DNA of 64,000 nt from Terribacillus sp. DMT04. GTDB lineage: Bacteria > Bacillota > Bacilli > Bacillales > Amphibacillaceae. Of the stretch, positions 24,700-55,585 are shown piece by piece. A program made the translations under genes and the position numbers. Position 1 is the first letter of the stretch. Each line of letters opens with the position of its first letter. Under the pieces are notes generated by a model that ran no database searches, had not been told where the DNA came from, and worked only from the letters and a program-made list of their open reading frames with translations. Where the stretch lies: assembly GCF_019056395.1 (NCBI RefSeq), contig NZ_CP077639.1, positions 2,544,001 through 2,608,000 of the forward strand, given 5' to 3'.

Positions 24700-24812
24700 T
24701 TTAGCGCAGGAAAGCGGAGTGTATTTCCGAAGCAGTGCTCTCATCTTATTTTCTTTCTCATGCAAAAAGATCCAAATGTACTGCTATAAACCGCAGTATC
24801 ATTTGAATCTTT
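24700..24812 (+). repeat. Dispersed intergenic repeat, partial copy with terminator hairpin
   Basis: The stretch GCAGGAAAGCGGAGTGTAT and the following TTCCGAAGCAGTGCTCTCATCT matches the right part of the copies at 44.5 kb and 55.3 kb (inverted). It ends in the same kind of hairpin: AAAGATCCAAATG... pairs with ...CATTTGAATCTTT around ACTGC/GCAGT. It lies directly after the mmpL stop codon and probably serves as that gene's terminator. The left half of the repeat is missing or degenerate. Confidence 0.75.
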
Positions 24813-24852
24813 AACTAGCTAAAAACATTACACTTTCAGCCTCTTACTTCTT

Positions 24853-27504
24853 TTATTCGTCATTTCGCTTCCGTTTAAACGGCCACCAGTTCAGCTCACC
24901 AAGTGTGACGGCGATAGCTGGGATAAGCAATGGCAGAATAACCAGTCCGTACAGAAGCAGACCGATAATGATAACAGTAGCAACCTCTAGCAGTGTTAAT
25001 ACACCAGATGGCATCATCGCAGCAAAAGTACCTGCCAAAATGATGGATGCGGTAATGATAACCGATCCCATCTTCTTCATCGAGTGAATCATACCTCCGT
25101 TCAAGTCGTCACGCGCTTCTTCCGTGAAACGATCGAGCAAGAAGATCGAGTAATCCACTCCGAGAGAAATAAGAATAACAAAGCTAAAGAATGGTACCGC
25201 CCAGCTCACACCTGCGTAATCCAAGCCGTTTACAAAGATCAATTCAGTAATGGATATCGCCGTATAGTAAGTAAGCAGCAACGATCCAATCATATACGCC
25301 GGAATGATCATCGAACGGAATAGCAAGGTTAAGATTAAGAACAAACCAACCATCATAATTACCATGGTCCGAGAAAGATCCGTCGTAGACAGTTCCTCTA
25401 AATCAGCGTTCGTACTCGTTACGCCGCCATACACAATTTCCGCATTTTCATACGGGGTACCTTCTACTTCGGCACTGACACGCTCTTTAATCGTATCCAA
25501 TGTACGAATTGCTTCCTCGGAATACGGATCTGTGTCCAAAACAACGTCAATCGTGACGCCTTCTCCATCATTGAATGCATACGTATCGATACTTTGCTGG
25601 AACTCCCCTTCTAGCGCATCTTCCGGAATATACATGCCTGTATCGCGTACAGACTCACTTTCACTAATCGCTTGCAGTGTATCCGCAGCTGTTGTAAGCC
25701 CGTCGGAAACTTGCGTTAACCCCTCATTGGCAGAACCAACACCATCAGCTAACTGCTGCAATGAATCTGTTAGTGTGCCTACTTGCTCCTGCTGTCCTTG
25801 CAGCTGCGTATTCGCCTGTTCCAGACCAGATTGAATTTCTCCGAGCTGCTGGCTGATTCCTGTCAGCTGAGCAGATGCCTGCTGCACGTTGCCTGTTTGC
25901 TGCAGCTGTGTGGAAACTTGCTGTAGTGCTGTATTGACTTGGCCCAGACCTTCTGTTGCCTCAGACAGCCCGCCGCCTGAAGAGCCGCCAGCATTCCCTG
26001 TTTGCCCAGTAATTTGGTTCAATCCGTCTTGAACCTGTGTCAAGCCATCTTGCACATCGCCAATTCCGGTAACAGCATCGTTGATACCATCCGCAATTTG
26101 GCCGTTCTGAGCATCCACATATAAATCATCAATTTTATCGCCTGTCGGCTGTGTTGCAGTTCGAACTTTTTCTACATGATCAACTTTGCTGATTGCATCG
26201 CTCAGCGGATCGAGATAAGGTAATGTATTGCTAGTTGTAAGATTCTCATCATCTTTTATCACAATTTGAATTGGCATTGCTTCGCCTTTGCCGATAGCAT
26301 CACCAATCGCATTCAGCCCTTTAATGGACTTGTAATCACTGCTGATTTCCTCTGTTGAGTTAAAGGAAACTTGCTCGTCATAAGTTAATACAAACGGCAC
26401 CGTAATTACAGCTGTAATGGCCAAGAACAACACCGGTCTGGCAACGGAATGACGACCAAGGAAATGCCAAAGCTTATTATCTCCATGAGAAGCTGCTTTT
26501 TTCGAAGGCCAGAATAACTTCTCTCCTAGCGTTACCATAAATAACGGCAGCACGGTGACAAGCACAATCAACAGCACAGCGACGCCGACTGCCACACCTA
26601 CAGCAGATTGGAAAATCGCAAATTTCGCAAAGAAAATGGATGCAAAACCTACAAATACCGCGATTGCACTGATAAGCAACGTCCGTCCGGCTGTCCGGTA
26701 AGCTGTGACAGTTGCCTCGACCTTACCATGTCCGTTCGCCAGCTCTTCCCGGAAACGGCTTAGCAGCAAGATACAATAATCGGTACCTATACCGAACAAT
26801 ATTGCCACTAAGAACGTTTGTGTAAAGGTGGAAATCGGGAAGTCCAGCGTATCTACTAAGATAGCCAAAATGCCCTGGCTAATTAAATACGTTATTCCGA
26901 CCGTAATTAATGGTACAAACGGCGTTACAATGGAACGGAATACAATTAACAGAAGCCCTACAATGATGAAGACGGTAATCAGCTCTGTTTTCTTCAAGCC
27001 CTCTTCTGATGTATTAGCGAAGTCTTGGTTGATTAACGACGCACCAGTTACGTATGCAGTCGTATCTTCTGGAACAGCTTCATAAATTTCATCTGTAATT
27101 TTTTCTATATCTTCATCTGATCCTTCGACCGTGATCGGCATCATGACAGTCTTTTTATCTTCAGACGTCATTTGATCCTGGATGTCTTGGTTGTCAGTCA
27201 GCGGTGTTGTAATCTCGCTCACACCGTCAATTTCTTCAACCTTATCAATAACTCTCTGAATCATGTTCTCACTGTCTTCATTTAATGCTTCATCAAGCAC
27301 AAATACGGCACTTAACGAGTTACTGTTCTCTCCGGCATCTTCAAGAATCTCGCTTGCCCGGATCGAAACAGCATCCTCTGGCAGCTGCGTTTGCCCTTTT
27401 TCAGAGGCAAGCTGCGTCAAATTGGGCGAAAAGATGGTTAGTCCTACTGCGACCAGGAGGACTGCAACTGCAATGAGCCACTTAAAACGAATAATTGTTC
27501 TCAC
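24853..27504 (-). CDS. MMPL/RND-family transporter (YdgH-like)
   Basis: 883-aa inner-membrane transporter with the two-fold layout of RND proteins: helix 1 at about 9-29, an external domain, five helices including GIGTDYCILLLSRFREE, then a repeat with helix 7, an external domain and helices including GVDYSIFLLDRFTEE. Residues about 470-620, in the second external domain, are Gln/Gly/Thr-rich (QLQQTGNVQQ, repeated QxGL patterns) and likely form a coiled coil. The start is GTG and overlaps the marR stop by 4 bp (GTGA), so the two are co-translated. Presumably exports lipids, peptides or drugs; B. subtilis YdgH under the MarR protein YdgG is the closest arrangement I recall. Confidence 0.9.
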   Translation of the reverse strand: MRTIIRFKWLIAVAVLLVAVGLTIFSPNLTQLASEKGQTQLPEDAVSIRASEILEDAGENSNSLSAVFVLDEALNEDSENMIQRVIDKVEEIDGVSEITTPLTDNQDIQDQMTSEDKKTVMMPITVEGSDEDIEKITDEIYEAVPEDTTAYVTGASLINQDFANTSEEGLKKTELITVFIIVGLLLIVFRSIVTPFVPLITVGITYLISQGILAILVDTLDFPISTFTQTFLVAILFGIGTDYCILLLSRFREELANGHGKVEATVTAYRTAGRTLLISAIAVFVGFASIFFAKFAIFQSAVGVAVGVAVLLIVLVTVLPLFMVTLGEKLFWPSKKAASHGDNKLWHFLGRHSVARPVLFLAITAVITVPFVLTYDEQVSFNSTEEISSDYKSIKGLNAIGDAIGKGEAMPIQIVIKDDENLTTSNTLPYLDPLSDAISKVDHVEKVRTATQPTGDKIDDLYVDAQNGQIADGINDAVTGIGDVQDGLTQVQDGLNQITGQTGNAGGSSGGGLSEATEGLGQVNTALQQVSTQLQQTGNVQQASAQLTGISQQLGEIQSGLEQANTQLQGQQEQVGTLTDSLQQLADGVGSANEGLTQVSDGLTTAADTLQAISESESVRDTGMYIPEDALEGEFQQSIDTYAFNDGEGVTIDVVLDTDPYSEEAIRTLDTIKERVSAEVEGTPYENAEIVYGGVTSTNADLEELSTTDLSRTMVIMMVGLFLILTLLFRSMIIPAYMIGSLLLTYYTAISITELIFVNGLDYAGVSWAVPFFSFVILISLGVDYSIFLLDRFTEEARDDLNGGMIHSMKKMGSVIITASIILAGTFAAMMPSGVLTLLEVATVIIIGLLLYGLVILPLLIPAIAVTLGELNWWPFKRKRNDE

Positions 27505-27947
27505 GTTTCCTTCTCTCCTTTTTTCAACTGTTCTTTTACATCGGTAAATATGCGGATAAACGCTTCTACATCTTCACTGCTAATATTCTCGAAGAGCGTG
27601 CAGAATTTATCATAAATGGCTTCTTCTGCTTGCTGCAGCATGCGCTCCCCTTCTGCGGTGATTTCAACAAGTTTTGTTCGCTTATCTCTCTCTGAATCAA
27701 TCCATTTTACAAACCCCTTCTCATACAGCTTTTTCAGACGATTGGAAATTGCACTTTTATGTACTTGCTGCACAATCGCCAGATGACCAGGAGAAGCAGG
27801 ACTGGATAAACTTAAAAATTTAAGCAGTTCTACCTGCTGAGGTGAAATATGCTGGAAGATATCATGTGAGGTACCTTTATGAAAAACCTCTGTAGCCATG
27901 AAGGATACTTCATGGAACAAATCAATTGCGTCCTTTAATCTGTTCAA
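27501..27947 (-). CDS. MarR-family transcriptional regulator
   Basis: 148-aa winged-helix repressor. The recognition region HLAIVQQVHKSAISNRLKKLYEKGFVKW and the wing DSERDKRTKLVEIT are typical. It is the first gene of a two-gene operon with the MMPL transporter and probably represses it. A perfect inverted repeat lies 23 nt upstream of the start and is the likely autoregulatory operator. Ligand unknown. Confidence 0.92.
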   Translation of the reverse strand: MNRLKDAIDLFHEVSFMATEVFHKGTSHDIFQHISPQQVELLKFLSLSSPASPGHLAIVQQVHKSAISNRLKKLYEKGFVKWIDSERDKRTKLVEITAEGERMLQQAEEAIYDKFCTLFENISSEDVEAFIRIFTDVKEQLKKGEKET

Positions 27948-27970
27948 AATCGTTTACCCCCTATACCAAT

Positions 27971-28001
27971 GTAGTTTATACCCTAAACTACAAGCAGTCA
28001 A
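27971..28001 (-). promoter_or_regulatory. marR-mmpL promoter with palindromic operator
   Basis: GTAGTTTA (27971-27978) and TAAACTAC (27984-27991) form a perfect 8+8 nt palindrome around 5 nt. On the minus strand TTGACT (27996-28001) lies just upstream and TATAAA falls inside the palindrome (spacing 15 nt, short), so repressor binding would cover the promoter. Typical of MarR autoregulation. Confidence 0.75.
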
Positions 28002-28243
28002 TCCTATTTACCTAAAAAATGTTGTAAATCTCCGGGTTATTGAATCAAAAATACTGATAAGGGTCGTAAGGTGCAGGTAAAACAACGTATGAACCAAGAA
28101 TCTGTCCACTTTTATCCAATAGGTAGGCTATTGTGCTGGAAAGAATATATTGCCATTACAGGGAGATGACAAACATCGGCAGCACGTACTGTATATATAG
28201 AAGATTTCTCCTTTCCCTAGTGTATAAGTCGCTCAAATTACGG
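28002..28243. other. Gene-free stretch between marR and the GH3 gene
   Basis: No recognisable gene. A 26-codon frame at 28091 lacks a ribosome site and is not supported. It probably contains promoter elements of the glycosidase operon. Confidence 0.4.
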
Positions 28244-28266
28244 AAAGTGAAACAAACAGTTTCGCT
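28244..28266 (+). promoter_or_regulatory. Candidate operator upstream of the GH3/GH30 genes
   Basis: AAGTGAAAC (28244-28252) and GTTTCGCTT (28258-28266) are inverted arms around 5 nt with one mismatch, about 90 nt before the GH3 start. A further short hairpin CAGACG/CGTCTG (28308-28325) lies in the leader. No regulator gene is adjacent; the assignment is inference. Confidence 0.45.
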
Positions 28267-28358
28267 TATTTCCTTATAGTGCCCGATTCCGTAGCATTAA
28301 ACGAGGCACAGACGCCGCCACGTCTGTCAGCATTTATAACTTAAGGAGTGGTATTATT

Positions 28359-31010
28359 TTGCATCGTTTTAGACGCTTACCTATTATTGGATTTATTGCT
28401 GTACTCTTAGCGGGTTTGCTTGTTCTTCCATTCCAAGCATTCGCAGCTGATACATCAGCAAAACCTTGGATGGATGAGAACGCATCCCCAACAAAACGAA
28501 CAAATCTGTTATTAGATGCCATGTCATTGAAGGACAAGGTAGATTTGATTACAGGAAACGTAAACAATTATTATGGCTTCTATAACAAAGCTATGGAGAA
28601 ATACGATATCCCTGCATTGAAAATGGCAGACGGTCCTGCCGGTGTCAGAATTGCCAATCCGGATATTCAAAACAAACAATCTACTGCAATGCCTGCTCCC
28701 ATTGCACTGGCTGCATCATGGGATACCGAGGCAGCAGAGGCTTATGGGGATGTGCTCGGCAGCGAAGCTTTTAACACAACTCATAATGTCTTGCTAGGAC
28801 CTGGCTTGGATATTGCGCGTAACGCTTTTGGTTCCCGCAACTTCGAATCTCTTGGAGAAGATCCAGTCCTGCAATCTCGTATAGCCGTGCCTTACATAAA
28901 TGGAATACAAGATAATCATGTTATGGCAACAGCCAAACATTATTTACTGAACAACCAAGAAACACTTCGATTCACCAATGACTCACAAGCAAGCGAACGA
29001 GCCATCAACGAAATTTATGCTCGCCCGTTCGGAGCTGCAATAGAAGACGGAAAGCTAAGCAGTGTGATGTGTGCTTTCAATAAAGTGAATACGGTAGCAG
29101 CTTGTGACAACAAAGAGCTGATGACAGACCTGCTTCGCGATCAGCTTGACTTCAACGGCTTTGTCATGAGTGATTACGGCGCCAACTTGAGCACCGTAAA
29201 ATCCATCCAAGCTGGCATGGATCTTGAAACACCAGGAGAGCCTTATGGAAAATGGGGAGAGCAGCTTCTCCAAGCGGTAAACGATGGCCGTGTTAGTGAA
29301 GATACCATCAATACGAGTGCTTTCCGCTTGCTGTATCAAATGTTCGATAAAGGACTGTTTGACAACCAAACACAAAACCAGCAAATCGATACAGCTGCAC
29401 ATGGCCAAATTGCTCGTGAAATTGCCGCTGACAGTATGGTCCTATTGAAAAACGAAAAGAATGCCTTACCTATTGAAGATAATACAAATTCTATTGCTGT
29501 TATCGGTCCAGATGCAGATAATGCCTCTGCTGCAGGCGGCGGAAGCTCTCTCGTTAACCCGATGTATACAGTAAGCCCGCTTGAAGGGATTAAAAATCAT
29601 GCGACAGATGATACAAAGATCAGCTACACAGCTGGTACCGATCCAATTAGTGCTGGAGATGTCATGCCAGGACCAGACGCTGTTCCATCTTCCTTGCTTC
29701 ATCCATCTGCAGATGCCGAGCAAAATGGAATGAAAGCGGAATATTGGACCAATACAAACTTCGAAGGCAATCCGTCACATGAACGGACCGACCGACAAGT
29801 GAATATGAATCTTGGTTTCTATAACTACGAAGGCTTTAACGCACAATCAACGAAACTGGAAAAACTGCCGACAAACTTAAACGGCATGATGTCTGCCCGC
29901 TGGACAGGTGTAATCGAGGCGCCAGCTGACGGCACGTATAACCTTTCCACTACTAGCTTTGGGACAAGCAAACTTTACCTTGATGGCGAGCTTATCATCC
30001 AAAATGCTGGTGAAACGCTTGGCACGAAAACTGTTGAAGTCGATTTGAAAAAAGGTGAACAGCACGACATTAAGATTGAATACCAAACAGATTACCCGAA
30101 AGAAGGCGGCCGTGATTACGGCGGACAAGTACGATTTGGCTGGGAACCTGCCGATGGTGCTGTAGATGCACAGATTAAAGAAGCAGTAACAGCAGCGAAG
30201 AAAGCTGACAAAGCTGTCATCGTAACTCGCACGTATGATAGTGAAGGTTATACAGACCGCTCTGATATGGAACTGCCAAACAACCAGCAGCAGCTCATAA
30301 AAGAAGTGGCAAAAGTAAATCCAAACACAATCGTTGTAAACGAAAGCGGCATCGCCATTGAAATGGGCGATTGGGAGAAAAACGTAAAAGCAATAGTTCA
30401 AGCATGGTATCCTGGTCAAGAACAAGGGAATGCTATTGCTGATGTACTCTTTGGACAAGTGAACCCTTCTGGTAAACTGCCAGTCACATTCCCGGTAGAT
30501 GAAGATACAACACCTACAAATGCTGCAAGCCAATTCCCTGGTACAAATGGTGTGAACAGCTACTCAGAAGGTGTATTCGTCGGCTATCGCGGCTATGATA
30601 AACAAAATCTGCAAGTCGCATATCCATTCGGATACGGGCTGTCTTATACAGACTTTAAATACAAAAATCTTCATAGCAAAGTAAAACAGAAAAAAGGCGA
30701 TACATCGATTGAAGTAAAACTTCATCTTCGCAACACAGGAGATGTACAAGGCGCTGAAGTTGTCCAAGTATACGCTGGACAATTACCAACTAACGCTGTC
30801 GAAACGCCAGAAAAACAACTAGCTGGTTTCGAAAAAGTAGAACTGAAAGCCGGTAAACAGCAGCCTATAAAAATCAAGCTTGATCCAAAAGCTTTCTCTT
30901 ATTATGATGAGGAACAGAATGAATGGGTAATGCCTTCTGGTGAGGTGCCAATTTATGTTGGCAGCTCGTCCCAAGACATTCGTCTCGAAAGCACGATTAC
31001 GCTGCCATAA
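28359..31010 (+). CDS. Secreted glycoside hydrolase family 3 beta-glucosidase with PA14 domain
   Basis: 883 aa with signal peptide (core about 8-27, cleavage near AFA-AD). The GH3 N-terminal barrel (about 45-330) has KMADGPAGVRI, TAKHYLLNNQE (Lys193-His194) and the nucleophile Asp272 in GFVMSDYGA. The GH3 C-terminal domain (about 350-715) is interrupted by a PA14 carbohydrate-binding domain at about 450-597; Glu629 in DSEGYTDR is the expected acid/base. A fibronectin-like domain closes the protein. Release of glucose from beta-glucosides is expected. TTG start with TAAGGAG 12 nt upstream. A GH30 gene follows after an intervening hairpin. Confidence 0.92.
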   Translation: MHRFRRLPIIGFIAVLLAGLLVLPFQAFAADTSAKPWMDENASPTKRTNLLLDAMSLKDKVDLITGNVNNYYGFYNKAMEKYDIPALKMADGPAGVRIANPDIQNKQSTAMPAPIALAASWDTEAAEAYGDVLGSEAFNTTHNVLLGPGLDIARNAFGSRNFESLGEDPVLQSRIAVPYINGIQDNHVMATAKHYLLNNQETLRFTNDSQASERAINEIYARPFGAAIEDGKLSSVMCAFNKVNTVAACDNKELMTDLLRDQLDFNGFVMSDYGANLSTVKSIQAGMDLETPGEPYGKWGEQLLQAVNDGRVSEDTINTSAFRLLYQMFDKGLFDNQTQNQQIDTAAHGQIAREIAADSMVLLKNEKNALPIEDNTNSIAVIGPDADNASAAGGGSSLVNPMYTVSPLEGIKNHATDDTKISYTAGTDPISAGDVMPGPDAVPSSLLHPSADAEQNGMKAEYWTNTNFEGNPSHERTDRQVNMNLGFYNYEGFNAQSTKLEKLPTNLNGMMSARWTGVIEAPADGTYNLSTTSFGTSKLYLDGELIIQNAGETLGTKTVEVDLKKGEQHDIKIEYQTDYPKEGGRDYGGQVRFGWEPADGAVDAQIKEAVTAAKKADKAVIVTRTYDSEGYTDRSDMELPNNQQQLIKEVAKVNPNTIVVNESGIAIEMGDWEKNVKAIVQAWYPGQEQGNAIADVLFGQVNPSGKLPVTFPVDEDTTPTNAASQFPGTNGVNSYSEGVFVGYRGYDKQNLQVAYPFGYGLSYTDFKYKNLHSKVKQKKGDTSIEVKLHLRNTGDVQGAEVVQVYAGQLPTNAVETPEKQLAGFEKVELKAGKQQPIKIKLDPKAFSYYDEEQNEWVMPSGEVPIYVGSSSQDIRLESTITLP

Positions 31011-31017
31011 CACATTG

Positions 31018-31053
31018 AAAACATCCTGCAGATTACCTGCAGGATGTTTTTGT
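31018..31053 (+). terminator. Intercistronic hairpin between GH3 and GH30 genes
   Basis: AACATCCTGCAG and CTGCAGGATGTT pair perfectly around 5 nt and are followed by TTTGT. The ribosome site of the GH30 gene (AAAGGAG) starts at once after it, so the hairpin would reduce but not necessarily abolish GH30 expression, or protect the GH3 message end. Confidence 0.78.
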
Positions 31054-31066
31054 AAAGGAGATACAG

Positions 31067-32512: not shown

Positions 32513-32547
32513 AAATACACAAGCGGATCACCTTCGAAGCTGCGGGA

Positions 32548-32672
32548 AGAGAGCACCGCTTCGGAAATACACTCCGCTTTCCTGCGGGCGGCTGGTGAGC
32601 CTCTTCGTGCTAAAGCACGCAGGGTCTCACCTAGGCCTTTTTCCCGCGGGAGTCTCCGTGTATTTCCTGCGC
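32548..32672 (-). repeat. Dispersed intergenic repeat, copy with 10-bp terminal inverted arms
   Basis: GGAAATACAC (32563-32572) and GTGTATTTCC (32658-32667) bracket a GC-rich, self-complementary core with CTTTCCTGCGGGCGG and CCCGCGGGAGTCTCC. The stretch GAGCACCGCTTCGGAAATAC is nearly identical to the copy at 55.3 kb. It lies between convergent genes (GH30 and padR), occupying most of the gap of about 290 bp. No open frame. Confidence 0.8.
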
Positions 32673-32804
32673 TTATTTTAGTTACGTGGAACCAACTAAG
32701 CGCACAGGCAGAATGCGGTGCCCTTTGCTGCTGTACAGTCAGTGAGAAGGTTACTTAAGTGAAAAGATCTCAACTAGTGCAGTATTATTCGAATCTCTAT
32801 AAAG

Positions 32805-33377: not shown

Positions 33378-33429
33378 ACACGATCTCCTTCTTGATGATT
33401 TGACAGTAGTATAACACAGCGTTACGCTT

Positions 33430-33451: not shown

Positions 33452-33481
33452 TAAACTTACACTATTAAGGGGATGTACATC

Positions 33482-43734: not shown

Positions 43735-44248
43735 ATGAAAAAGAAGAAAGATCGTATTTTGTATACAGATGCACCTGACTCCCTTAATTTCCTGCAGTTT
43801 GTCCATAATTATGCCAAGCAAGAAAGACACTCATTTCCACAAGTTCCAAATAACCCATGGAAAGTACAAGAACCAAAAGTACTCATGCCGATGCTAAAAC
43901 AGCTATGGAACGAAACACTTCTATCACCTATCCCCTCCATACATATGTACAATCATAAAGAAGATTTTCAAGCACTCTTTTATGATGAAGATAGCTTTAA
44001 CAGCTGTTTGGAAACTTTCCAAGCATGGTGGGGAAACATGGTTGGAAAGATGGCCGTTGAACGGTATCTCGGGATTCAAAATGGCAACTCTTTGTACACC
44101 TTTTTCAAAAGATAATCTTGCCATACATCTAACATATGAAAATGACATTCTAGGTAACGCTTCGGTCGATGGCCGTATTGTACTGACGTTAAGAGAAACA
44201 CTCATACAAGAGGAAATGCTGCGCATTGTGCAAGAGCGCTTCGTCTGA
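43735..44248 (+). pseudogene. Unknown gene apparently split by a frameshift
   Basis: A 126-aa frame (43735-44115, ATG with TGGAGG upstream) starts MKKKKDRILYTDAPDSLN and ends abruptly after FFKR at a CCTTTTTCAAAA tract. The +1 frame continues at once with SKDNLAIHLTYENDILGNASVDGRIVLTLRETLIQEE to 44248, a segment with protein-like composition. One extra base in the T5 or A4 run would explain it, giving an original protein of about 170 aa. The family is not recognised. It could also be a sequencing error or two overlapping frames. It follows the RND pump by 60 nt and may be co-transcribed. Confidence 0.6.
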
Positions 44249-44302
44249 CTTCTCCTTTGCACTTTCACCTGGCCTTAAAGAATAGGTTGGGACAAAACTA
44301 GA

Positions 44303-44698
44303 TTAATTCATCCTAAAAGCGAACGATGACTAGATCCATACTTTTTAATGCAGCCCTCTAACGGCTGTTGCTCTCCGAATCTAGCTGTTATCGTCGGACA
44401 AGAATGGCATTTGAAGTAGACGCCGACAAGAAAATTGCTTCTTATTTTCGAGGAGTCTACGTATTCTATCTACACGAGTGAAGACTTCTATAACAAAAAT
44501 CAGCGTAGGAAATACACGGAGACTCCCGCGGGAGGAAGGCTAGGGGAGACCCCCGCAGTGCGTATTTTGCACAAGGAGGCTCCCCAGCCGCCCGCAGGAA
44601 AGCGTAGTGTATTTCCGAAGCGATGCTCTCAACTAAATTCCCAATGCAAAAAATCCAAACAATGCTGCATTTAATTGCAGTATTGCTTGAATTTTTAT
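44303..44698 (+). repeat. Dispersed intergenic repeat, long copy ending in a terminator
   Basis: About 395 bp sharing a common structure with the reverse complement of 55238-55585: TTAATTCATCCT and AAAGCGAACGA at the left end, then GACAAGAAAAT-GCTTCTTATTTTCGAGGAGTCTACGTATT, AACAAAAA-CAGCGTAGGAAATACACGGAGACTC, CAGCCGCCCGCAGGAAAGCG, GTGTATTTCCGAAGCGATGCTCTCA, and finally a hairpin built on AAAATCCAAACAATGCTGC/GCAGTATTGCTTGAATTTTT (44648-44698). A 53-bp core insertion, absent at 55.3 kb, is itself GC-rich and foldable. It lies between convergent genes and has no credible reading frame. Confidence 0.82.
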
Positions 44699-44768
44699 AT
44701 ATCTTAAACAGTTATGTCTCAGCCACGCTTTCTAATGAGGCATTTTAAATCAAGTGCTTCACACTTAT

Positions 44769-46226
44769 TTATTCTTTTTCCTGATTCCTTTTCGCTGTTA
44801 GCAAACTCACAACAGTCATCACCACGAGATTCACTACCAACGCAATAATCCCCGTATTTACATCATTCCATGCTCCTGACAAGAATGGGAATAAATCCAC
44901 TAGTGTAGTATGCGTCAGCGTAATATATGCGACCGTAGCTAATCCAGCAAGAATCCCTGCGCCTGCGCCGTACTTGTTGACGAAGTTCTTTTTCCCGAGA
45001 CTAAAGAACAACGATGGAGCCAGCTGGGTCATTAAGCTGTAGCCCATTAAAATAATATTGGACAATGTTGCTCCGCCATGCAGGGTGAACAGAACAGCGA
45101 CTAAGCTGACAACAGGAACAAGCAGCCGTGCTAGTTTCCCGATGGTTTGTTGTGATGATTTCGGAGCAAATACGTTATAAATGTTCTTTGCTAGTAATGT
45201 GGCTGTGCTCATAATCAGCAAAGAACCAGGTACTAAAGCTGTCAGTAAACCCGCTCCTCCTATCACGCCAATCACCCAAGGATCAAAGGTTTCCATAGAA
45301 ATCCGGATTAAGGCAAGATCCACATCTTCTCCTTCCAATCCAGGCACTGTTAAAATGGCGGCGGTTCCTACGAAAAAGACGAACAAAAGCATGAGTGTAT
45401 ACAGCGGGCTGATGATCGCGTTTTTTCGGAATACACGTGCATTTTTCGCCGTGTACGTCGAACTGAATACTTGCGGCCACATGTAAAATCCTAAAACAAG
45501 CAGCAAGACGGTCGAAATAACCCAAGTGACGCTGTTGCCATCATCCGGGAACCGCAGGAAGTCTGGATTGGCTGTGTGAACCGCTTCGAACATTGGCTGA
45601 AAGCCGCCAAAATAATGTAACGGCAAATAGATACCAAGAAAACAAATAACAACGACCATTACAATATCTTTAATCAACGCAGTCCATGCTGATCCGTGCA
45701 CGCCGGAAAGCATGACGTAAATCGTTAAACTGATGGCGCCAATCCATACAGCTGTTTCCATGGAAATAGCGCCGTACGAAGCTTGGGACACGATAATTCC
45801 TAAGCCCTTTAGCTGTACGACGATAACAGGTATCATGCCGATAACGCCAACTAATGCAACGAGCACGCCAAGATACGGGCTGTTGTATTTTTTCACAAAA
45901 AAGTCAGACTGTGACACCAGCTTGTGTTCTTTTGCATACCGCCAAATGACCGGTAACAGCCAGTACGAGACAACATACGACAAACAGATATACATTAGTA
46001 CATATAATGCTGGTGCTCCTTTTCCGTATGCCCAGCCGCTGCCGCCAAGGAAAGAGAACGTTGTATATATCTCTCCTGCCATGAGCAAGAAGACGAAGAT
46101 AGCACTAAACCCTCTTCCACCGACTGTCCATTGCTCGAGGTCCATCTGTTTTCCTTTGGTAGATCGAATGCCTAAGAAAACAGCTAACAGCAGAAATCCT
46201 AATATGATAATAAGTGCACTATTCAT
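44769..46226 (-). CDS. Sodium:solute symporter family transporter (YhjB-like)
   Basis: 485-aa membrane protein with about 13 helices. N-terminal EQWTVGGRGFSAIFVFLLMAGEIYTTFSFLGGSGWAYGKG is typical of the SSF branch whose genes pair with DUF3311 proteins. It overlaps the DUF3311 gene by 4 bp (ATGA), as yhjB follows yhjC in B. subtilis. Substrate unknown, probably a small metabolite such as a carboxylate taken up with Na+. The downstream dispersed repeat supplies a hairpin. Confidence 0.92.
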   Translation of the reverse strand: MNSALIIILGFLLLAVFLGIRSTKGKQMDLEQWTVGGRGFSAIFVFLLMAGEIYTTFSFLGGSGWAYGKGAPALYVLMYICLSYVVSYWLLPVIWRYAKEHKLVSQSDFFVKKYNSPYLGVLVALVGVIGMIPVIVVQLKGLGIIVSQASYGAISMETAVWIGAISLTIYVMLSGVHGSAWTALIKDIVMVVVICFLGIYLPLHYFGGFQPMFEAVHTANPDFLRFPDDGNSVTWVISTVLLLVLGFYMWPQVFSSTYTAKNARVFRKNAIISPLYTLMLLFVFFVGTAAILTVPGLEGEDVDLALIRISMETFDPWVIGVIGGAGLLTALVPGSLLIMSTATLLAKNIYNVFAPKSSQQTIGKLARLLVPVVSLVAVLFTLHGGATLSNIILMGYSLMTQLAPSLFFSLGKKNFVNKYGAGAGILAGLATVAYITLTHTTLVDLFPFLSGAWNDVNTGIIALVVNLVVMTVVSLLTAKRNQEKE

Positions 46227-46525: not shown

Positions 46526-46562
46526 AAAAACAGAGAAAACCGAAATTCGATTTTCTCTGTAT
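46526..46562 (-). terminator. Terminator of the gluconate operon
   Basis: ACAGAGAAAA pairs with TTTTCTCTGT (loop about 12 nt), followed on the minus strand by TTTTTTAT. Just past the gntP stop. Confidence 0.85.
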
Positions 46563-46579
46563 CGTTTACTAGATATGCA

Positions 46580-47905: not shown

Positions 47906-47929
47906 CTCGTTTTCCCCTCTTCTCTGTTG

Positions 47930-47943
47930 TATAAGCGCTTTCA
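47930..47943 (-). promoter_or_regulatory. cre-like site between gntK and gntP
   Basis: The minus strand reads TGAAAGCGCTTATA, 13/14 to the cre consensus (A in place of C at position 13). It may act as a roadblock for gntP expression in glucose. Confidence 0.6.
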
Positions 47944-47967
47944 TGCCTTAAAGCAGAGAAAGCCGCA

Positions 47968-49509
47968 TTATTGCAGCATTCTCCGCTGGAAATCAGCAAT
48001 TCGTGCATATTCTGTTTCGAAAGTCCGAGACAACTGAATATAAATGCTCATCAGCTCTTGATAAACATCTACACATTCTGGATTTGGCGTATGGTGGTGT
48101 GTGTGTCCAATCATGTCATTGACAACAGCAAATGAATCGATATCACCGAGGCTGTACAAACCAAGTACTGCCGCTCCGAGACAAGAGCTTTCATAGCTTT
48201 CCGGAATATGCACATCTTGGTTAAAGATATCGGCCATCATTTGTCTCCACATGCTAGAACGCGCGAAACCGCCAGTTGCTTGAATCTTTTTCGGACTGCC
48301 TGTCAATTCGGTCAACGCTAACAGTACTGAGTAAAGATTGAATAAAACACCTTCCAGAACTGCACGGATCATATGCTCTTTCTTATGATGCAGTCCCAGT
48401 CCAAAGAAGGAACCGCGGGCATTCGCATCCCAAAGCGGGGCGCGCTCTCCGGCTAAATAAGGGTGGAATAACAAGCCATCTGATCCTGGTTTTACGAGTG
48501 ATGCAATCTGGGTGAGCACTTCATACGGATCAATACCGAGCCGTGCCGCCGTTTCCGTTTCGGCTGCACCTAGCTCATCACGTACCCAACGAAGTACAAC
48601 ACCGCCATTATTGACCGGACCGCCAACGACCCAATGATTCTCTGTCAGCGCATAACAAAAGATACGGCCCTTTGGATCTGTTGTAGGCTTGTCTGTAACG
48701 GCTCGAATAGCTCCGCTTGTTCCGATGGTGACGGCTACAACGCCTTCTTCTACTGCACCTACCCCAAGATTGGACAAAACACCGTCACTTGCCCCGACGA
48801 TGAACGGCGTTTGCCGCAGCACGCCGAGTTCTTCTGCCATCTGTTCTGTCAGACCGACGAATTGATACGTCGTTGATACCGGTTCGGATAGCTGATTGGC
48901 GGTAACACCAGCAACTGCTAGCGCTTCCTCATCCCAAGCGAGCTTCTCCAAGTTGAACATGCCTGTTGCAGAAGCAATTGAATAATCGACTTTATAGCTG
49001 CCGAATAGCTTGAAGAACACATATTCTTTTATGGAAATGAATTTAGCTGTTTGTTCGAAAACCACTGGGTGCTCTTCTTTTAGCCAGCGCAGCTTCGACA
49101 GTGGCGCCATTGGGTGAATCGGTGTGCCAGTACGCTCATAAATACGATGACTGTCTGTTTCTTCCTTGATTTGCTCCGTCCATTTTGTTGCTCGGTTATC
49201 AGCCCAGGTGATACATGCTGTGAGCGGTTTATGGTTGGCATCGACAGCAATCACGCTATGCATGGCAGAACTAAAGGAAATGCAGCGTATCGCTGCCGGG
49301 TCCACGCCGCTAATACGGATTGTATCTTGAATGGTGGAAATGACAGCTTGGTATATTACTTCCGGATCTTGCTCAGCTGTTTCCGCTGTTGGCGAATGCA
49401 ACGGATATTCGATACCTTCCTTTGCAATTACTTCACCAGTTGTTGTGAACAGGACGGCCTTCGTACTCGTCGTCCCCATATCTACGCCGATCATATAGGA
49501 AGCTTGCAA
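47968..49509 (-). CDS. gntK: Gluconokinase
   Basis: 513-aa FGGY-family sugar kinase phosphorylating gluconate to 6-phosphogluconate. Nucleotide motif IGVDMGTTSTKAVLF at the N-terminus, TIGTSGAIRAV, and the C-terminal FGGY element ATGGFARSSMWRQMMADIF. TTG start at 49507-49509 with strong GGGGAGGGG. Second gene of gnd-gntK-gntP. Confidence 0.94.
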   Translation of the reverse strand: MQASYMIGVDMGTTSTKAVLFTTTGEVIAKEGIEYPLHSPTAETAEQDPEVIYQAVISTIQDTIRISGVDPAAIRCISFSSAMHSVIAVDANHKPLTACITWADNRATKWTEQIKEETDSHRIYERTGTPIHPMAPLSKLRWLKEEHPVVFEQTAKFISIKEYVFFKLFGSYKVDYSIASATGMFNLEKLAWDEEALAVAGVTANQLSEPVSTTYQFVGLTEQMAEELGVLRQTPFIVGASDGVLSNLGVGAVEEGVVAVTIGTSGAIRAVTDKPTTDPKGRIFCYALTENHWVVGGPVNNGGVVLRWVRDELGAAETETAARLGIDPYEVLTQIASLVKPGSDGLLFHPYLAGERAPLWDANARGSFFGLGLHHKKEHMIRAVLEGVLFNLYSVLLALTELTGSPKKIQATGGFARSSMWRQMMADIFNQDVHIPESYESSCLGAAVLGLYSLGDIDSFAVVNDMIGHTHHHTPNPECVDVYQELMSIYIQLSRTFETEYARIADFQRRMLQ

Positions 49510-49529
49510 CTTCTTCCCCTCCCCTTTTG

Positions 49530-50426
49530 TTAGCGTTTCACCACTGCGTGACCGCCGAATTCATTTCGCAATGCTGCGACTACTTTTCCAGAGAACGTAT
49601 CTTCATCTAATGAGCGATAGCGCATCATAAGTGACATCGCGATTACAGGTGTTGCTGCTTGCAGCTCAAGTGCTGTTTCGACTGTCCATTTACCTTCACC
49701 AGAAGAATGCATCACACCGCGAATGGCATCAAGATTCGGATCTTTGCTAAATGCGGATTCAACGAGTTCCATCAGCCAAGAGCGAATAACTGAACCGTTG
49801 TTCCACACTTTCGCAACATGCTCATAATCAAAGTCAAAATCACTTTTTTCTAGTACTTCAAAGCCTTCTGCAATCGACTGCATCATGCCGTATTCCACGC
49901 CGTTGTGGACCATTTTCAAAAAGTGGCCGCTTCCGCTTTTGCCAGCGTAATGATAGCCATTTTCCACACTGATTGCTTGGAAGATTGGTTCAATTGTTTT
50001 GAACACTTCTGCGTCTCCGCCAATCATCGTGCACACGCCATGACGCGCTCCATCTGTTCCGCCGCTTGTCCCTACATCAAAGAAATGAATACCATGTTCA
50101 GCAAAAGCTTTTGCACGTTCTACCGATTCTTTGTAGTTGGAGTTTCCGCCGTCCATCAGAATATCTCCTTCCGATAGATACCCCTTTAGCTCTTCCAGCA
50201 CTTTTTCCGTGATTTCTCCAGCAGGAACCATTGACCAGATTATCTTCGGGCTTGGCAGCTTATCCGCTAATTCTTTCAAAGAAGCAGCTGCTTCTCCCTT
50301 TGTCTCAGCAAATTTTGTGCGCGCTTCTTCATTTACATCAAAAGCAACAATCTCAAAATTATTGTCTAGCAAGTTCAAACCAAGATTGAATCCCATTTTT
50401 CCAAGACCGATTAATCCAATATGCAT
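49530..50426 (-). CDS. gnd: 6-phosphogluconate dehydrogenase, short (YqeC/GndA) type
   Basis: 298-aa decarboxylating dehydrogenase producing ribulose 5-phosphate. Rossmann motif IGLIGLGKMGFNLG at residues 3-16, DGGNSNYKESVERA (catalytic region), GTSGGTDGARHGVCTMIGGD, and the sugar-phosphate region KMVHNGVEYGMMQSIAEG. It belongs to the short class of about 300 aa, not the 468-aa GntZ class. First gene of the gluconate operon, divergent from an RpiR-type regulator. ATG with AAGGAG. Confidence 0.92.
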   Translation of the reverse strand: MHIGLIGLGKMGFNLGLNLLDNNFEIVAFDVNEEARTKFAETKGEAAASLKELADKLPSPKIIWSMVPAGEITEKVLEELKGYLSEGDILMDGGNSNYKESVERAKAFAEHGIHFFDVGTSGGTDGARHGVCTMIGGDAEVFKTIEPIFQAISVENGYHYAGKSGSGHFLKMVHNGVEYGMMQSIAEGFEVLEKSDFDFDYEHVAKVWNNGSVIRSWLMELVESAFSKDPNLDAIRGVMHSSGEGKWTVETALELQAATPVIAMSLMMRYRSLDEDTFSGKVVAALRNEFGGHAVVKR

Positions 50427-50443
50427 GATATATATGCTCCTTC

Positions 50444-50506
50444 AAAATAATTTTCAATTTATGATACCATAATAAGAAAATAATTTTCATATTGCAAGCG
50501 ATTACA
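50444..50506. promoter_or_regulatory. Gluconate operon control region: tandem operators and cre-like box
   Basis: AAAATAATTTTCA occurs twice (50444-50456 and 50477-50489), start-to-start 33 bp or three helical turns, each almost palindromic. A cre-like TGTAATCGCTTGCA (minus strand, 50493-50506, 13/14) adjoins the second. The twin copies are the probable sites of the divergent RpiR regulator. Confidence 0.65.
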
Positions 50507-50560
50507 GTAAATTAATGCTATACTACTCCTAACAATTAAGACGAAAGCGAGCTGATTTTC

Positions 50561-51406
50561 TTGGCACAGCAAGGTTTAGCGGGCATTCGCTCTCACTACC
50601 CGAGACTAAGTGATAAAGAAAAAAAGATAGCCGATTTCATACTCAAACAGCCCGAAACAATCGTACACCAGACAATTAGCCAAGTAGCCGACCACTTAGA
50701 TGTAGCAGATGCTACAGTATCCCGTTTTTGTAAGCGCATCGGTTACAAGGGCTATCAAGCATTAAAAATTGCATTAGCGCCTGAAATTATGGCACCGAAT
50801 GACATGCTGCATGAAGATATTACAGACAGTGATGACGCAAGAATGGTAGCTGAAAAAATTTTTCAATCCAATATACGAACGTTGGAAAACACGTTGCAAG
50901 TACTCGGTGAAAAGGAGCTTGAACAGGCAGCCGAACTGCTACTTCATGCCAATAGAGTAGAGTTTTATGGCTTTGGCGGGTCCAATACGGTCGCAATGGA
51001 TGCGTACCATAAATTTGTCCGCTCAGGCGTACCTGCTTTCGCCTTTCCTGATGGTCATTTGCAGCTGATGTCTGCTTCCCAGCTGTCTGCTGAAGATGTC
51101 GCTTTTATCTTTTCTCATTCAGGTGCCAGCAAAGACGCTTATCAACTGCTTCAAACAGTGAAGAAATCCGGAGCCAAAACAATCGCCATTACCGGCTTTC
51201 CAAAATCGCCTATCGGCCAGCAAGTAGACGTTGCATTACATACAAGCTCCGAAGAAACAGCTTACCGATCGGAAGCACTTGCTTCCCGCATTGCACAGCT
51301 AAGTATTATTGATGCTTTGTATGTCGCAGTTATTATGCGCCAAAAAGACAAAGCCCAAGCATCCGTAGAAAAAGTTCGGAATGCAATCGCTGCAACAAAA
51401 ATGTGA
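50561..51406 (+). CDS. RpiR-family transcriptional regulator of gluconate genes
   Basis: 281 aa. N-terminal RpiR helix-turn-helix (about 1-77: SDKEKKIADFILKQPETI, DVADATVSRFCKRIGYKGYQALK) and C-terminal SIS phosphosugar-binding domain (about 125-265: VEFYGFGGSNTVAMDAYHKFVRSG). Divergent from gnd-gntK-gntP, so it likely senses 6-phosphogluconate or a related sugar phosphate. TTG start at 50561 with only a weak AAAGCGAG, implying low expression. B. subtilis uses a GntR protein instead, so the regulator type differs. Confidence 0.88.
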   Translation: MAQQGLAGIRSHYPRLSDKEKKIADFILKQPETIVHQTISQVADHLDVADATVSRFCKRIGYKGYQALKIALAPEIMAPNDMLHEDITDSDDARMVAEKIFQSNIRTLENTLQVLGEKELEQAAELLLHANRVEFYGFGGSNTVAMDAYHKFVRSGVPAFAFPDGHLQLMSASQLSAEDVAFIFSHSGASKDAYQLLQTVKKSGAKTIAITGFPKSPIGQQVDVALHTSSEETAYRSEALASRIAQLSIIDALYVAVIMRQKDKAQASVEKVRNAIAATKM

Positions 51407-51674
51407 CCCTTCGGAAACAGGACAGGTCACATGAAAAAGTGCGGGAGTATCTGCTAATAGTACGCATGGAACGTTATCTCTATCAAATGACTTTCAGTAA
51501 AACAGCATCTATAAAAGAGCAAGCGCTTCCGTTCTTCAGGAGGGATGATGTTGCAACGAGAAAACATTGGCATTCTAGTACCTCTCATCATTGCTTCTTT
51601 CTGCTAGCACTTTTGAAGTCTATTATGAAAAGTAAGCCGTACAACGGAAATAGGAGTTCAAGTTTTCATGATGC
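51407..51674. other. Gene-free stretch after the RpiR regulator
   Basis: No supported gene; a 109-codon frame in it has unbiased composition and no ribosome site. The right end carries GGAAATAGGAGTTCAAG and leads into the terminator hairpin of the dispersed repeat family, so it may be a decayed copy. Confidence 0.45.
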
Positions 51675-51724
51675 AAAAAATCCAAACTCTTCTGCTATTA
51701 ACTGCAGTAGTGTTTGGATTTTTT
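51675..51724. terminator. Terminator hairpin of the dispersed repeat family
   Basis: AAAAAATCCAAACxC...CTGC and GCAG...GTGTTTGGATTTTTT pair strongly. The same hairpin (AAAATCCAAACA...GCTGC) ends the repeats at 44.7 kb and 55.2 kb and, in altered form, 24.8 kb. It lies between the convergent rpiR and pucR-type genes. Confidence 0.85.
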
Positions 51725-51771
51725 ATAGATAAAACAAGATTCATATTATGCCCTTTTAAAACAGTTCTAAA

Positions 51772-52992
51772 TCAATCCTTCCCTCTGGTCATCAAATCCA
51801 GCAGCAGTTGAAATTTCTGCATCACGTCTGTCATATCCAGCTGAAGCGCTTCATTGATTTGATTGATTCGGTAGTTGACTGTGTTTGGATGAACAAAGAG
51901 CGCTGCCGCAGTTGGCTTGATTTTACAGTTATGCAGCAAGTATAGTTCCAGCGTCTTGAACAATTCTTTTTTATCATTCGGATCAAGTCTTCGTATCTTT
52001 TTTAAATCTTCGCTTTCATAGCCAAGTTCCTTGTTTTTATCGGCAATGGCTTGCAGATAACGGCAAACATGCAAATCCTTATAATACAACGGTACTGGCC
52101 GATGCGTGAGTTTTATCGCTTGAATTACTTCTCTAGCTTGTGCGGCGCTCGTTAACATATCAATTGAATCTTGGTAAACACTGCCGACACCGCTAAGAAT
52201 ACAAGCTCCTTTGTCCTTCGCATAATCGCGAATCCTTTGAATGACTTCTCTGGCTAATGTTTCGATTGGTGCATCAGCTTGCTTACCGCCATGAACGATT
52301 AGTAATGTATCATCCTTAATCAGCACATGATGTAATTTATCCTCTAGCTGAAGCGATGTTTGTGCGACTTGCTGCAAATCATACAGCAGCTTCTCATCCC
52401 ATTGCGGCAGTTCAACAGCCGCAACAGCAAAATAATCTGGCAGGACGACACCAAACTCCTTTGCCCCCCATTCTAAATCAGAAGAGCGCTTATACAAATT
52501 ATTGAAAATATTTCGATAAAATTGATCCTTCTTTTCCTCCTGCTTCAGCTTCGATTTTTGGATGTCATAGATGAGCCGACCGATATGGAAAGAAATCTCG
52601 TAAAGAAAATTAACATCTGATGCAGACAACGGCTGCTCCATCTCCTGAATCCAGACATAACCCATGACACGTTCTTCATGCTTTGCGCTTACCACAATCC
52701 TAGTATTTAACCCAATCTCCGGCATCGCTAAAACAGTGAAAGGACGTTCGTAAGTTTTCAGCTTGTTAACGATCCCCGCTTCAATAAATCTTTCATAAAT
52801 AGGCAGTGTCCACTTCTTTGTGAATATTGTCTGCTGATTTGCATCATCAAAATGATGTACATAGTGCGAATTGTACGCTAGCAGCGTATAATCAGCACTC
52901 TCAACGATCACTGGTCTTTCCAGCTCAAAGCTTAGTAAATCGATGACAGCATCCAAATCGTTGATGGATAAAACACGATCGAATAACTCCAT
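51772..52992 (-). CDS. PucR/CdaR-type transcriptional regulator
   Basis: 406-aa activator-like protein. A sensor-type N-terminus (about 1-150) is followed by a GGDEF-like middle and the PucR C-terminal helix-turn-helix (LELYLLHNCKIKPTAAALFVHPNTVNYRINQI at about 345-376). This group includes PucR, AdeR and the proline regulator PutR. The put genes at 61-63 kb might be its targets, but there is no direct evidence. Divergent from a chemoreceptor gene. ATG with AGGGGAA. Confidence 0.88.
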   Translation of the reverse strand: MELFDRVLSINDLDAVIDLLSFELERPVIVESADYTLLAYNSHYVHHFDDANQQTIFTKKWTLPIYERFIEAGIVNKLKTYERPFTVLAMPEIGLNTRIVVSAKHEERVMGYVWIQEMEQPLSASDVNFLYEISFHIGRLIYDIQKSKLKQEEKKDQFYRNIFNNLYKRSSDLEWGAKEFGVVLPDYFAVAAVELPQWDEKLLYDLQQVAQTSLQLEDKLHHVLIKDDTLLIVHGGKQADAPIETLAREVIQRIRDYAKDKGACILSGVGSVYQDSIDMLTSAAQAREVIQAIKLTHRPVPLYYKDLHVCRYLQAIADKNKELGYESEDLKKIRRLDPNDKKELFKTLELYLLHNCKIKPTAAALFVHPNTVNYRINQINEALQLDMTDVMQKFQLLLDLMTRGKD

Positions 52993-53101
52993 AACTCATT
53001 TCCCCTAAGCATTTTCTTCTATCATAACGGACTCCATACATTTTGCCTAGTCTCTTCCAATTTTTCCATGTGATATATAAATATTATTACTAAATTTAAT
53101 T

Positions 53102-53175
53102 AGAAAGCGTTATCTTCTTGTTTTATAAAATTTATAGCTAAAATGTACTACATAATCCCTTCTTCCTACCGATAA
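53102..53175 (+). promoter_or_regulatory. Chemoreceptor promoter region with sigma-D-type promoter and cre-like box
   Basis: TACA (53149-53152), 15 nt, ACCGATAA (53168-53175) resembles the sigma-D consensus TAAA-N15-GCCGATAT used for chemotaxis genes. At 53102-53115 AGAAAGCGTTATCT matches the cre consensus at 13 of 14 positions. Confidence 0.6.
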
Positions 53176-53221
53176 TAATGTGTAGCCAGTAATACAGCAC
53201 AGAGAGGAATAAAGTATAGAT

Positions 53222-55228
53222 ATGGAAGAAACAAAAAAGAGAGGTAATTTCTTTACCCGAAAAATTTTACGCAAAATCATTTACCCGATTGTTGCGATGT
53301 TTATTTTATCAGGACTCGTAACCGCCTACTTCGGTTACCAATTCAGCCGCACGACGATGTTGGAATCTCAAACAGAACAAATGAAAGATCAAACGGTTGT
53401 ACAGCTAAACAGTATTTATGACTTATTCCTTGAGAATATAGAAAATAGTCTGGACAGCATTAGTAAGATGCAATCACTACGAAATAACAATATGGACCGA
53501 TTGGGTGCAACATTCGAAAGTTATGCAAAAGATAATGACAATATCGAATCCATTTTCTATCAGCCAATGGAAGGTGAAATGCTATCTTATCCAGAAGCTA
53601 CTCTTCCGGAGGATTTCGACCCAACAACACGGCCATGGTATAAACTTGGTTTAGAGTTACAAGAAAACCCCGGCTACACTGACCCATATGTATCAACAAC
53701 CACCGGCGAACAAGTTGTCGATGCAGTACAGCCTATCTTTGACAATAACAACGAGTTAAAAGGAATGCTGATTGTTGAATTTAGACTTTCTTCATTAAAA
53801 GAGCTTACCGAGCAAGTGCAAGTAGCAGAGACAGGCTATGCTGTTGCTTTTGATTCATCAGGTCACTTCCTATCTCATCCGAATGAAGAGTATCTAGGAA
53901 CAGATGCGACGGAAAATGAGTTCTGGGAAAAAATGATGGCTTCAGGTCGCTCTGGAATTGTCCATTATGAATTCGAAGGCGAAGATCGCGCATTAGCCTT
54001 CACAACGAATGACCGTACTGGTTGGACAATTGCAGCAATTGTTCCGACAAAAGAATTCAGCGACTTAGCGAGCGGGATCATCCTGCCTCTTTTAATCACT
54101 GTACTCGTCGTTCTTGCTATAGCAATTCTTGTTACCTTCTTCGTTGTTAACTCTGTCGTACGACCAATTCAAGTACTTCGAGATAAAATGAAGCATGTAG
54201 AAGATGGTGACCTGACTGTTCGAATGGAAACAAAATCAAATGATGAGATTGGCGATCTATCAAACAGCTTTAACACAATGATAGGCAACATACACGACAT
54301 GATGCACCATAACACGGAGATTTCTGCAAATGTTCAATCTGCATCCCAAGCTTTGTCTGCTAATGCCGAAGAAAACGCCGCAACGTCTAGTGAAGTAGCA
54401 GCAACAATGGAAGAGATTTCTGCTGGAACACAAAGCTTAGCAGAAATTATGGAACGCAATGCTGTTGCAACAGAGGCTCTATCTCAGAATATCAAACTAG
54501 TAGATGCACACAATCAGCAAGTGTATGAAGAAGCGCTTGTCATGACAGAATCCGCTAAAGTAGGCGGATCACAGATGCAAGACTTGATTGAGCAATCGAA
54601 GGATGCAATTGAAGCTACTGGTAAGATCGAAGCAGCAGTCAAAAGTCTGCAGCAAAAATCCAGCAATATTGGCGGTATTGTGAATACTATTACCGACATC
54701 GCTGGACAAACGAACTTGCTCGCTCTTAATGCAGCAATTGAAGCAGCGCGTGCTGGCGAAAGCGGCAAAGGCTTCGCTGTTGTAGCAGATGAAGTTCGCA
54801 AACTAGCTGAACAAACGGAAACAGCATTGCGAGATATTGCAAGCATCGTACAAGAGATTCAATCAGAAACAGCCGAGACAGCAGCATTTGCCTCTAAAAC
54901 AGGTGATGTAGTAAGAGGACAAGAAACGGCTGTTAATAGTACAAAAGAAATCTTTATTCAGATCCAAGAGGCAATCACCCACAATATGGAGCTGACTGCT
55001 CAAACGAAGGAAGAAATGAAATCCATGATGGAGCGAGAAGCAACGCTTGCTACCAATACGGGTGAAATTGCAGCAATCAGCCAGGAAACGGCAGCCGGCA
55101 CAGAAGAAATAACGGCTTCTGTAGCGGATCAAAGTCACTCTATGGAACAATTGAAAGAACTGGCAGAGAAGTTAGAAGCAGATTCTAATACGCTGCAAGA
55201 GCAGCTGCAGCAGTTTAAATTGTCATAA
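53222..55228 (+). CDS. Methyl-accepting chemotaxis protein
   Basis: 668-aa chemoreceptor. Helix 1 at about 19-37, a double-Cache-type sensor (about 40-275, with [14 protein letters not shown]), helix 2 at about 286-310, HAMP (about 311-363) and the cytoplasmic signalling domain with the hairpin tip [19 protein letters not shown] followed by [18 protein letters not shown]. dCache receptors commonly bind amino acids or carboxylates; the ligand is unknown. No receptor partner is encoded beside it. ATG; the ribosome site GAGAGG is 12-14 nt away, rather far. Confidence 0.93.
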
Positions 55229-55237
55229 AAGAGATCT

Positions 55238-55585
55238 ATAAAAATCCAAACAATACTGCAATTATAGCAGCATTGTTTGGATTTTTTGCATTTGCATTGG
55301 AAACGAAGATGAGAGCATCGCTTCGGAAATACACTCCGCTTTCCTGCGGGCGGCTGGTGAGTCTCCGTGTATTTCCTACGCTGTTTTTTGTTATGTGATA
55401 CCTTCACTCGGGGAGGTAAAATACGTAGACTCCTCGAAAATAAGAAGCGATTTTCTTGTCGGTCTCTTACTTCAATTGCTATACCTGTCCAACGGTAACA
55501 GCAAGAGTTGAAGAGGCAGCGGCCGTCGGAGGAATGCAGTAAAACAGTAGGCATGTATGAATCGTTCGCTTTCAGGATGAATTAA
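55238..55585 (-). repeat. Dispersed intergenic repeat, long copy ending in a terminator
   Basis: About 348 bp, the inverted match of 44303-44698. It begins with the terminator hairpin AAAATCCAAACAATACTGC/GCAGCATTGTTTGGATTTTT (55240-55287), then GAGAGCATCGCTTCGGAAATACAC (55325-55334 is the terminal arm) and GTGTATTTCC (55367-55376), CCTACGCTG, then CGTAGACTCCTCGAAAATAAG and AAGCG-ATTTTCTTGTC, and ends near TCGTTCGCTTTCAGGATGAATTAA. The central core is 53 bp shorter than at 44.5 kb. It fills the gap between the convergent chemoreceptor and aroE genes; no credible frame. Confidence 0.82.

Follow-up and report, generated by a model that had tools for sequence, protein, structure and literature searches.

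The window, the whole stretch of DNA analysed here, comprises 64,000 nucleotides of the genome of Terribacillus sp. DMT04. A sequence-only reading had proposed related repeats at five places within it, and related sequence is indeed present at all five. These repeats are best read as MITEs of the IS1182 family, and the features on which the analysis builds are as follows.

44282..44727, plus strand: complete MITE copy of 446 bp (copies across the genome, end motifs)
44282..44298, plus strand: left terminal inverted repeat ATAGGTTGGGACAAAAC, consensus AGAGGCTGGGACAAAAC (end motifs, copy comparison)
44711..44727, minus strand: right terminal inverted repeat GTTATGTCTCAGCCACG, consensus GTTATGTCCCAGCCTCT (end motifs)
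44508..44616, plus strand: GC-rich palindromic core GGAAATACAC...GTGTATTTCC, 109 bp, related to a repeat that is widespread in other genera
44649..44696, unstranded: terminator-like hairpin, usable on both strands (-18.9 / -21.1 kcal/mol, z -4.6 / -4.1)
55232..55594, minus strand: second, near-full MITE copy, reversed, with a short core and unrecognisable outer ends (genome copies)
55240..55286, unstranded: terminator-like hairpin of the second copy (-22.5 and -28.3 kcal/mol)
55325..55376, minus strand: short core of the second copy, 52 bp (window comparison)
32563..32667, minus strand: core alone, without IS1182-type ends or hairpin (core search)
24705..24812, plus strand: decayed partial copy, right core edge plus hairpin at 24766-24812 (core search, folding)
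51675..51724, unstranded: hairpin homologue alone (window and G001 comparison, folding)
46530..46560, unstranded: intact target-like hairpin, in whose place relative G003 has a MITE (G003 comparison, folding)

The element originally placed at 44303-44698 is real, and its true span is 44282-44727, its terminal inverted repeats having been overlooked. The extent of the one at 55238-55585 is likewise corrected to that of the near-full reverse copy 55232-55594, and the related sequence reported at 32548-32672 consists of the core only. Of the other two places, 24700-24812 is the right edge of the core plus the hairpin and 51675-51724 is the hairpin alone; the core lengths of 52 and 109 bp were accurate. 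Four of the five places lie in convergent gaps, in agreement with the ORF list, the exception being 24700, which lies between two minus-strand ORFs. The longest ORF within the copy 44282-44727 has 79 aa and a TTG start, and a mechanical 139-aa ORF (55135-55554) overlaps the reverse copy. The stretch 51675-51936, which starts with the lone hairpin, aligns to relative G001 at 83%. The four hairpins derived from the element (44649, 55240, 51675 and 24766) fold at -18.9 to -28.3 kcal/mol, and the target-like hairpin at 46530 at -14.2 kcal/mol.

Copies in the genome and their link to IS1182

The search for further copies suggested by the sequence-only reading was carried out in the window's own genome (G000; 3.52 Mb, 2 contigs). 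A query of 44290-44720 gave at least 89 matches and a core query of 32540-32690 at least 53; merging both lists by hand places the element or pieces of it at a minimum of 44 loci, which is not chance. Copies read together with their flanks reach further out than first described and have the consensus inverted ends AGAGGCTGGGACAAAAC...GTTATGTCCCAGCCTCT, whose outer six bases differ among copies. Allowing up to 3 mismatches, the end pattern occurs at 43 forward and 50 reverse sites, as against 5 and 2 for the reversed control. Copies of accepted size measure 258-451 bp and are non-coding. Removing 13 entries with weak ends or odd size from a list of 42 leaves the set of 29 copies used below.

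Several pairs of end motifs lie ~1.85 kb apart, each enclosing one long gene. Two of the enclosed products are IS1182-family transposases (NF033551, 420.7 and 407.1 bits; cut-off 270), and the scanned transposases also carry Pfam DDE domains. The genome contains 16 transposase matches, of which one is partial and 14 score practically alike, and the seven IS copies that were compared are at least 99.08% identical. The 17-bp ends of the 1.85 kb IS copies and of the MITEs are closely similar and share the same asymmetry, one end having ACAAAAC and the opposite one ACATAAC. In MITE copy L012, the right end equals that of the IS in L103 at 16/16 bp, and the left end matches that of the IS in L101 at 16/17 bp. 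Given such similarity of the ends within one genome, the repeats are best read as IS1182-family MITEs. They have the many dispersed non-coding copies (at least 44 loci), the terminal inverted repeats shared with an IS (L012 against L103 and L101) and the empty sites in relatives (36/44 two-sided pairs with an interval of 0-99 bp) by which MITEs are recognised; an IS-derived interior, common in MITEs and not obligatory, was not found. Beyond the ends, comparison of the MITE interior with the IS copies (blastn-short) gave short matches only, the best of 14 bp (E 0.007). Since nothing more than ends and short matches is shared, the MITE does not appear to be a plain deletion derivative of the present IS copies. 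The sequence-only reading had held that membership of an IS-derived family would speak against its proposal. The IS1182 link comes close to this, but it explains the repeats rather than removing them.

Within the IS, the transposase frame meets no stop codon, and it continues into the flanking DNA (in L101 the frame spans 674-2455 and the IS ends at 2350), with open frames of 582-627 aa among the 14 copies of equal score; the same is reported for IS1272 by Furi 2016 (PMC4923244). On contig C1 of G000, the copies L006 (712583-713026) and L019 (2921812-2922199) have one end of the AGAGAGCGGGACA type and not of the AGAGGCTGGGACA type. The former is also that of the 14-copy IS, so that an exchange of ends may perhaps have occurred in these copies. 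None of the at least 44 known MITE loci falls within 1.22-2.02 Mb of the same contig, a stretch of 0.8 Mb that surrounds a GC-skew flip at ~1.7 Mb (P 0.00025 for a gap this large under random placement). IS1182 transposase genes do occur in this stretch, at 1.23, 1.38 and 1.43 Mb. By eye, among the matches listed, contig C13 of G003 has few copies at ~1.13-2.38 Mb.

Empty sites in relatives and position next to genes

We searched 19 flank pieces in four genomes of the same genus and aligned both flanks, which yielded 44 two-sided orthologous site pairs from 18 of the 19 elements across the 4 relatives. One genome per species was sampled, so very recent insertions are not seen in this comparison. 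The window's own element (L001) gave no two-sided pair among the four relatives. In 36 of the 44 pairs, representing 16 elements, the interval between the flanks is 0-99 bp. Three pairs have a negative interval (L002 twice, and L067), and five exceed 100 bp (L010/L186, L019/L181, L027/L177, L060/L144 and L067/L161), some having the size of a filled site.

The interval in the 36 pairs is usually a hairpin flanked by an A-rich and a T-rich stretch, as exemplified by AAACCGCTGCTGTGCAGCGGTTTT at L005 and AGCCGCTGTCCATAGCAGACAGCGGCT at L010. In all but one of the 36 pairs, the hairpin score was reached by no more than 5% of control windows from the same locus. In 30 of them, the centres of hairpin and interval are no more than 5 bp apart, with 2.2 expected for points within 100 bp. 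Taking one pair per element, 13 of 16 are centred, and 100,000 simulations gave at most 7; at least one relative has a centred hairpin for 15 of the 16 elements, L015, where it is off-centre, being the exception. L002 adjoins a retained hairpin and has replaced none, and L067 is unreadable in G001. Read by eye, the junctions show no target site duplication. Thus, the loss of an inverted-repeat target upon insertion that characterizes IS1272-type elements is found here as well, with the exceptions of L002 and L015.

The window offers examples in both directions. At the site of the copy 55232-55594, the same two flanks enclose GGAGAAGCACGCACCTGTGCTTCTCC and then a run of T's in G001, and reciprocally the window hairpin 46530-46560 is occupied by a MITE in G003. 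A readable empty site for 44282-44727 was found in neither G001 nor G003, where the flanks are ~1.6 and 8.9 kb apart. Among the IS copies, five of the six flanks queried (L102, L105, L107, L108 and L109) have a folded empty-site hairpin in at least one relative, as judged by eye with no statistical control; three of four L107 pairs were unreadable, and the L103 flank piece had no match in the relatives. Left and right flanks are no more complementary within elements than between shuffled ones (29 copies), which indicates that there is no general remnant of the target stem. A retained stem as a general rule is thus unsupported in these 29 copies, L010 alone showing one by eye. The IS1182-type ends, the many dispersed copies and the empty sites support the earlier suggestion that the element is mobile, and the pattern at the empty sites matches the hairpin-replacing transposition of IS1272/TnSha1, which it would share in mode.

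Positions relative to genes were counted for 38 of 42 copies, leaving out L014, L024, L030 and L048. By mechanical ORF calls, 18 lie in convergent, 20 in co-directional and none in divergent gaps. The reference of 380 gaps, drawn from 20 samples of 20 kb spread evenly over this genome, comprises 59 convergent, 268 co-directional and 53 divergent gaps (Fisher P 1.6e-5 for convergent and 0.008 for divergent, 38 copies against 380 gaps). In 31 of the 38 copies, at most 20 bp separate an end from the stop codon of a gene running towards the copy (hand count); gene distances are approximate for nine of the 38, in which one end is recognised weakly. The hairpin end faces the gene that ends there in 13 of the 20 co-directional copies, no clear bias (hand count).

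Such placement could also arise if MITEs inserted at random, survived downstream of genes and the adjoining hairpins were later lost as redundant. Selection alone would be expected to deplete divergent gaps, and it is the explanation given for convergent enrichment in the SPRITE paper (PMC3049150). We nevertheless regard this course of events as improbable, given that in 30 of 36 pairs the missing interval and the hairpin differ in position by no more than 5 bp, where 2.2 such pairs would be expected in the same neighbourhood.

The hairpin-replacing mode is itself already known. TnSha1/IS1272 is reported always to insert into hairpins, with partial deletion, and five of its seven target hairpins are terminators confirmed by RNA-seq (Furi 2016, PMC4923244). 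Inverted-repeat-replacing transposition without target duplications has been described together with four insertions near genes, each immediately downstream (Wan 2017, PMC5678879), and IS1182 is one of ten IS families over-represented between convergent genes (PMC9208149). As far as these accounts go, the staphylococcal IS1272/TnSha1 and the elements described here have in common an IS1182-family transposase, hairpin targets that include terminators, the whole or partial loss of the target hairpin and the lack of a target duplication. IS1272/TnSha1 is autonomous or gene-carrying, whereas the elements here are non-coding, 258-451 bp long, present at 44 or more loci and equipped with a terminator-like hairpin of their own.

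The two-way hairpin and the proposed mechanism

A hairpin framed by an A-tract and a T-tract lies near the right end of the copies. In 28 of the 29, all but L061, it scores above every one of 20 dinucleotide shuffles. RNAalifold on the 29 copies retained the terminator helix and one short invariant helix. Two-sided changes affected 4 of 25 pairs, in one sequence each, with a covariation term of +0.55, so that covariation is weak among these close copies. No conserved RNA fold of the whole element was obtained. The comparison with Rfam that had been proposed gave no match at gathering score across the whole window; at E up to 1, the interval 44200-44800 gave three matches, all far below gathering scores. 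The suggestion of an RNA-type element is thus unsupported, as only the hairpin and the short invariant helix are conserved and Rfam has no match. The companion suggestion, that the element doubles as a transcription stop, gains support from structure and position, namely the two-way hairpin and the 31 of 38 copies near stop codons, and we treat it as a predicted activity.

We consider it very probable that these MITEs are moved in trans by IS1182 transposases, replace hairpins at gene ends, bring a terminator of their own and carry a separate core. The trans-mobilisation, the enzymatic steps, the terminator activity and the compensation are what we infer from sequence. A transposase of the IS1182 family would act in trans on ends of the GGGACAWAAC type and join the element to the DNA at the base of a palindrome that can form a hairpin, in most cases the intrinsic terminator that directly follows a gene. 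This hairpin would be lost and no target duplication made. The near-palindromic A-tract/T-tract hairpin of the MITE would then end transcription from both sides and thereby make up for the terminator removed, while internal deletions of the carried core would lead to the length variation of the element.

Terminators or structured RNAs that the host maintains, and that spread by recombination and not by transposition, would also have a strong two-way hairpin (28 of 29 copies) and a position directly after stop codons. We judge this highly improbable in view of the IS1182-type ends, the empty sites in sister species, the lack of a conserved fold beyond the hairpin and one short invariant helix, and the lack of an Rfam match.

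Returning to the hairpin-replacing MITEs, their closest counterparts among small dispersed repeats are found in Streptococcus pneumoniae, where SPRITE, RUP and BOX are also enriched between convergent genes (PMC3049150). Like the MITEs here, SPRITE has a terminator-like form and is found near the 3' ends of genes. Going by the published description, it is set apart by its AAAA/TTTT ends as against IS1182-type ends, and no empty site could be compared there, in contrast to the many found here. Within the part of the open-access literature that was covered, we found no description of an IS1182-family MITE in Bacillus-like genera, of a non-autonomous high-copy element of the hairpin-replacing class, or of the idea that a mobile element brings a replacement terminator. 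What is new, as far as these searches reach, is an element of this class that is non-autonomous, reaches a high copy number and carries a two-way terminator-like hairpin of its own.

The carried core and the spread of the ends

The core is a GC-rich palindromic repeat of Bacillus-like genera (CGCTTTCC..GGGC...CTCCTCG). Among the matches listed, its pattern is common in named Bacillus-like genera, which we take to be mostly Bacillales, and also occurs in one Pisciglobus; no match to the core was found among plasmids. Of 123 core instances listed elsewhere, three have IS1182-type ends on both sides, five on one side and 115 on neither (control 0). As so few are accompanied by such ends, the core can probably spread without them, and these counts argue that it is an independent widespread repeat carried by some of these MITEs. 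Although the core occurs alone at 32563-32667 and in many other genera, mostly without IS1182-type ends, it is scarcely credible that it is the mobile unit and the arms its hitch-hikers, as the empty-site junctions here fall at the outer ends and not at the core ends, and several copies lack most of the core.

All ten genomes of the genus match the MITE somewhere, and by eye several congeneric species have sister subfamilies with the same plan and other hairpins. Among 199 genomes sampled from the order, which represent 98 genera, the strict end pattern occurs in 25, counting the window's own, and in 19 of the genera (reversed control 0). We read 30 end-motif loci, two from the own genome and 28 from others. 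Among the 28, an inverted partner end lies 133-417 bp away in 13 (hand count) and 837 bp away in one. The search up to 700 bp from the motif gave no paired end in 15 of them, and no fewer than three (L338, L342 and L351) resemble bare short hairpins made of the end motif and not elements. The hairpin next to the end scores above all 20 shuffles in 15 of these 28 loci. In some loci, such as L358 by eye, CCGAAC/GTTCGG arms embrace a core-like stretch.

We would give about an even chance to a wider reading, in which terminator-swapping transposons extend across the order: IS1182 transposases would target hairpins, and their passengers would have evolved two-way terminators that lower the cost to the host. 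If so, transposition would be one of the forces behind terminator turnover in these bacteria, and selection for compensation would maintain the differing passenger hairpins (CCAAACAATACTGC here, CCGAAC... elsewhere among the genera). The mechanism proposed for the MITEs would itself explain the build-up of such repeats at gene 3' ends by targeting as well as selection, and would take hairpin-replacing transposition beyond the staphylococcal IS1272, to elements that are non-autonomous and belong to other genera. The insertions supply natural before-and-after pairs for terminator replacement, and the prediction follows that such elements retain a functional terminator since their insertion destroys one.

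The window also contains other repeats. Three tandem units of ~123 bp (GGGAAATTCACCCACTCCGGGCT... / TTTTCTTCATGTCTAGCTGC...), 70-90% alike, occupy 60798-61174, and by eye similar sequence adjoins the core at L120 and L128, loci of two other species. The segments 57506-57671 and 58995-59163, ~1.5 kb apart and 72-84% alike, lie in minus-strand ORFs of 391 and 400 aa and likely represent a gene duplication.
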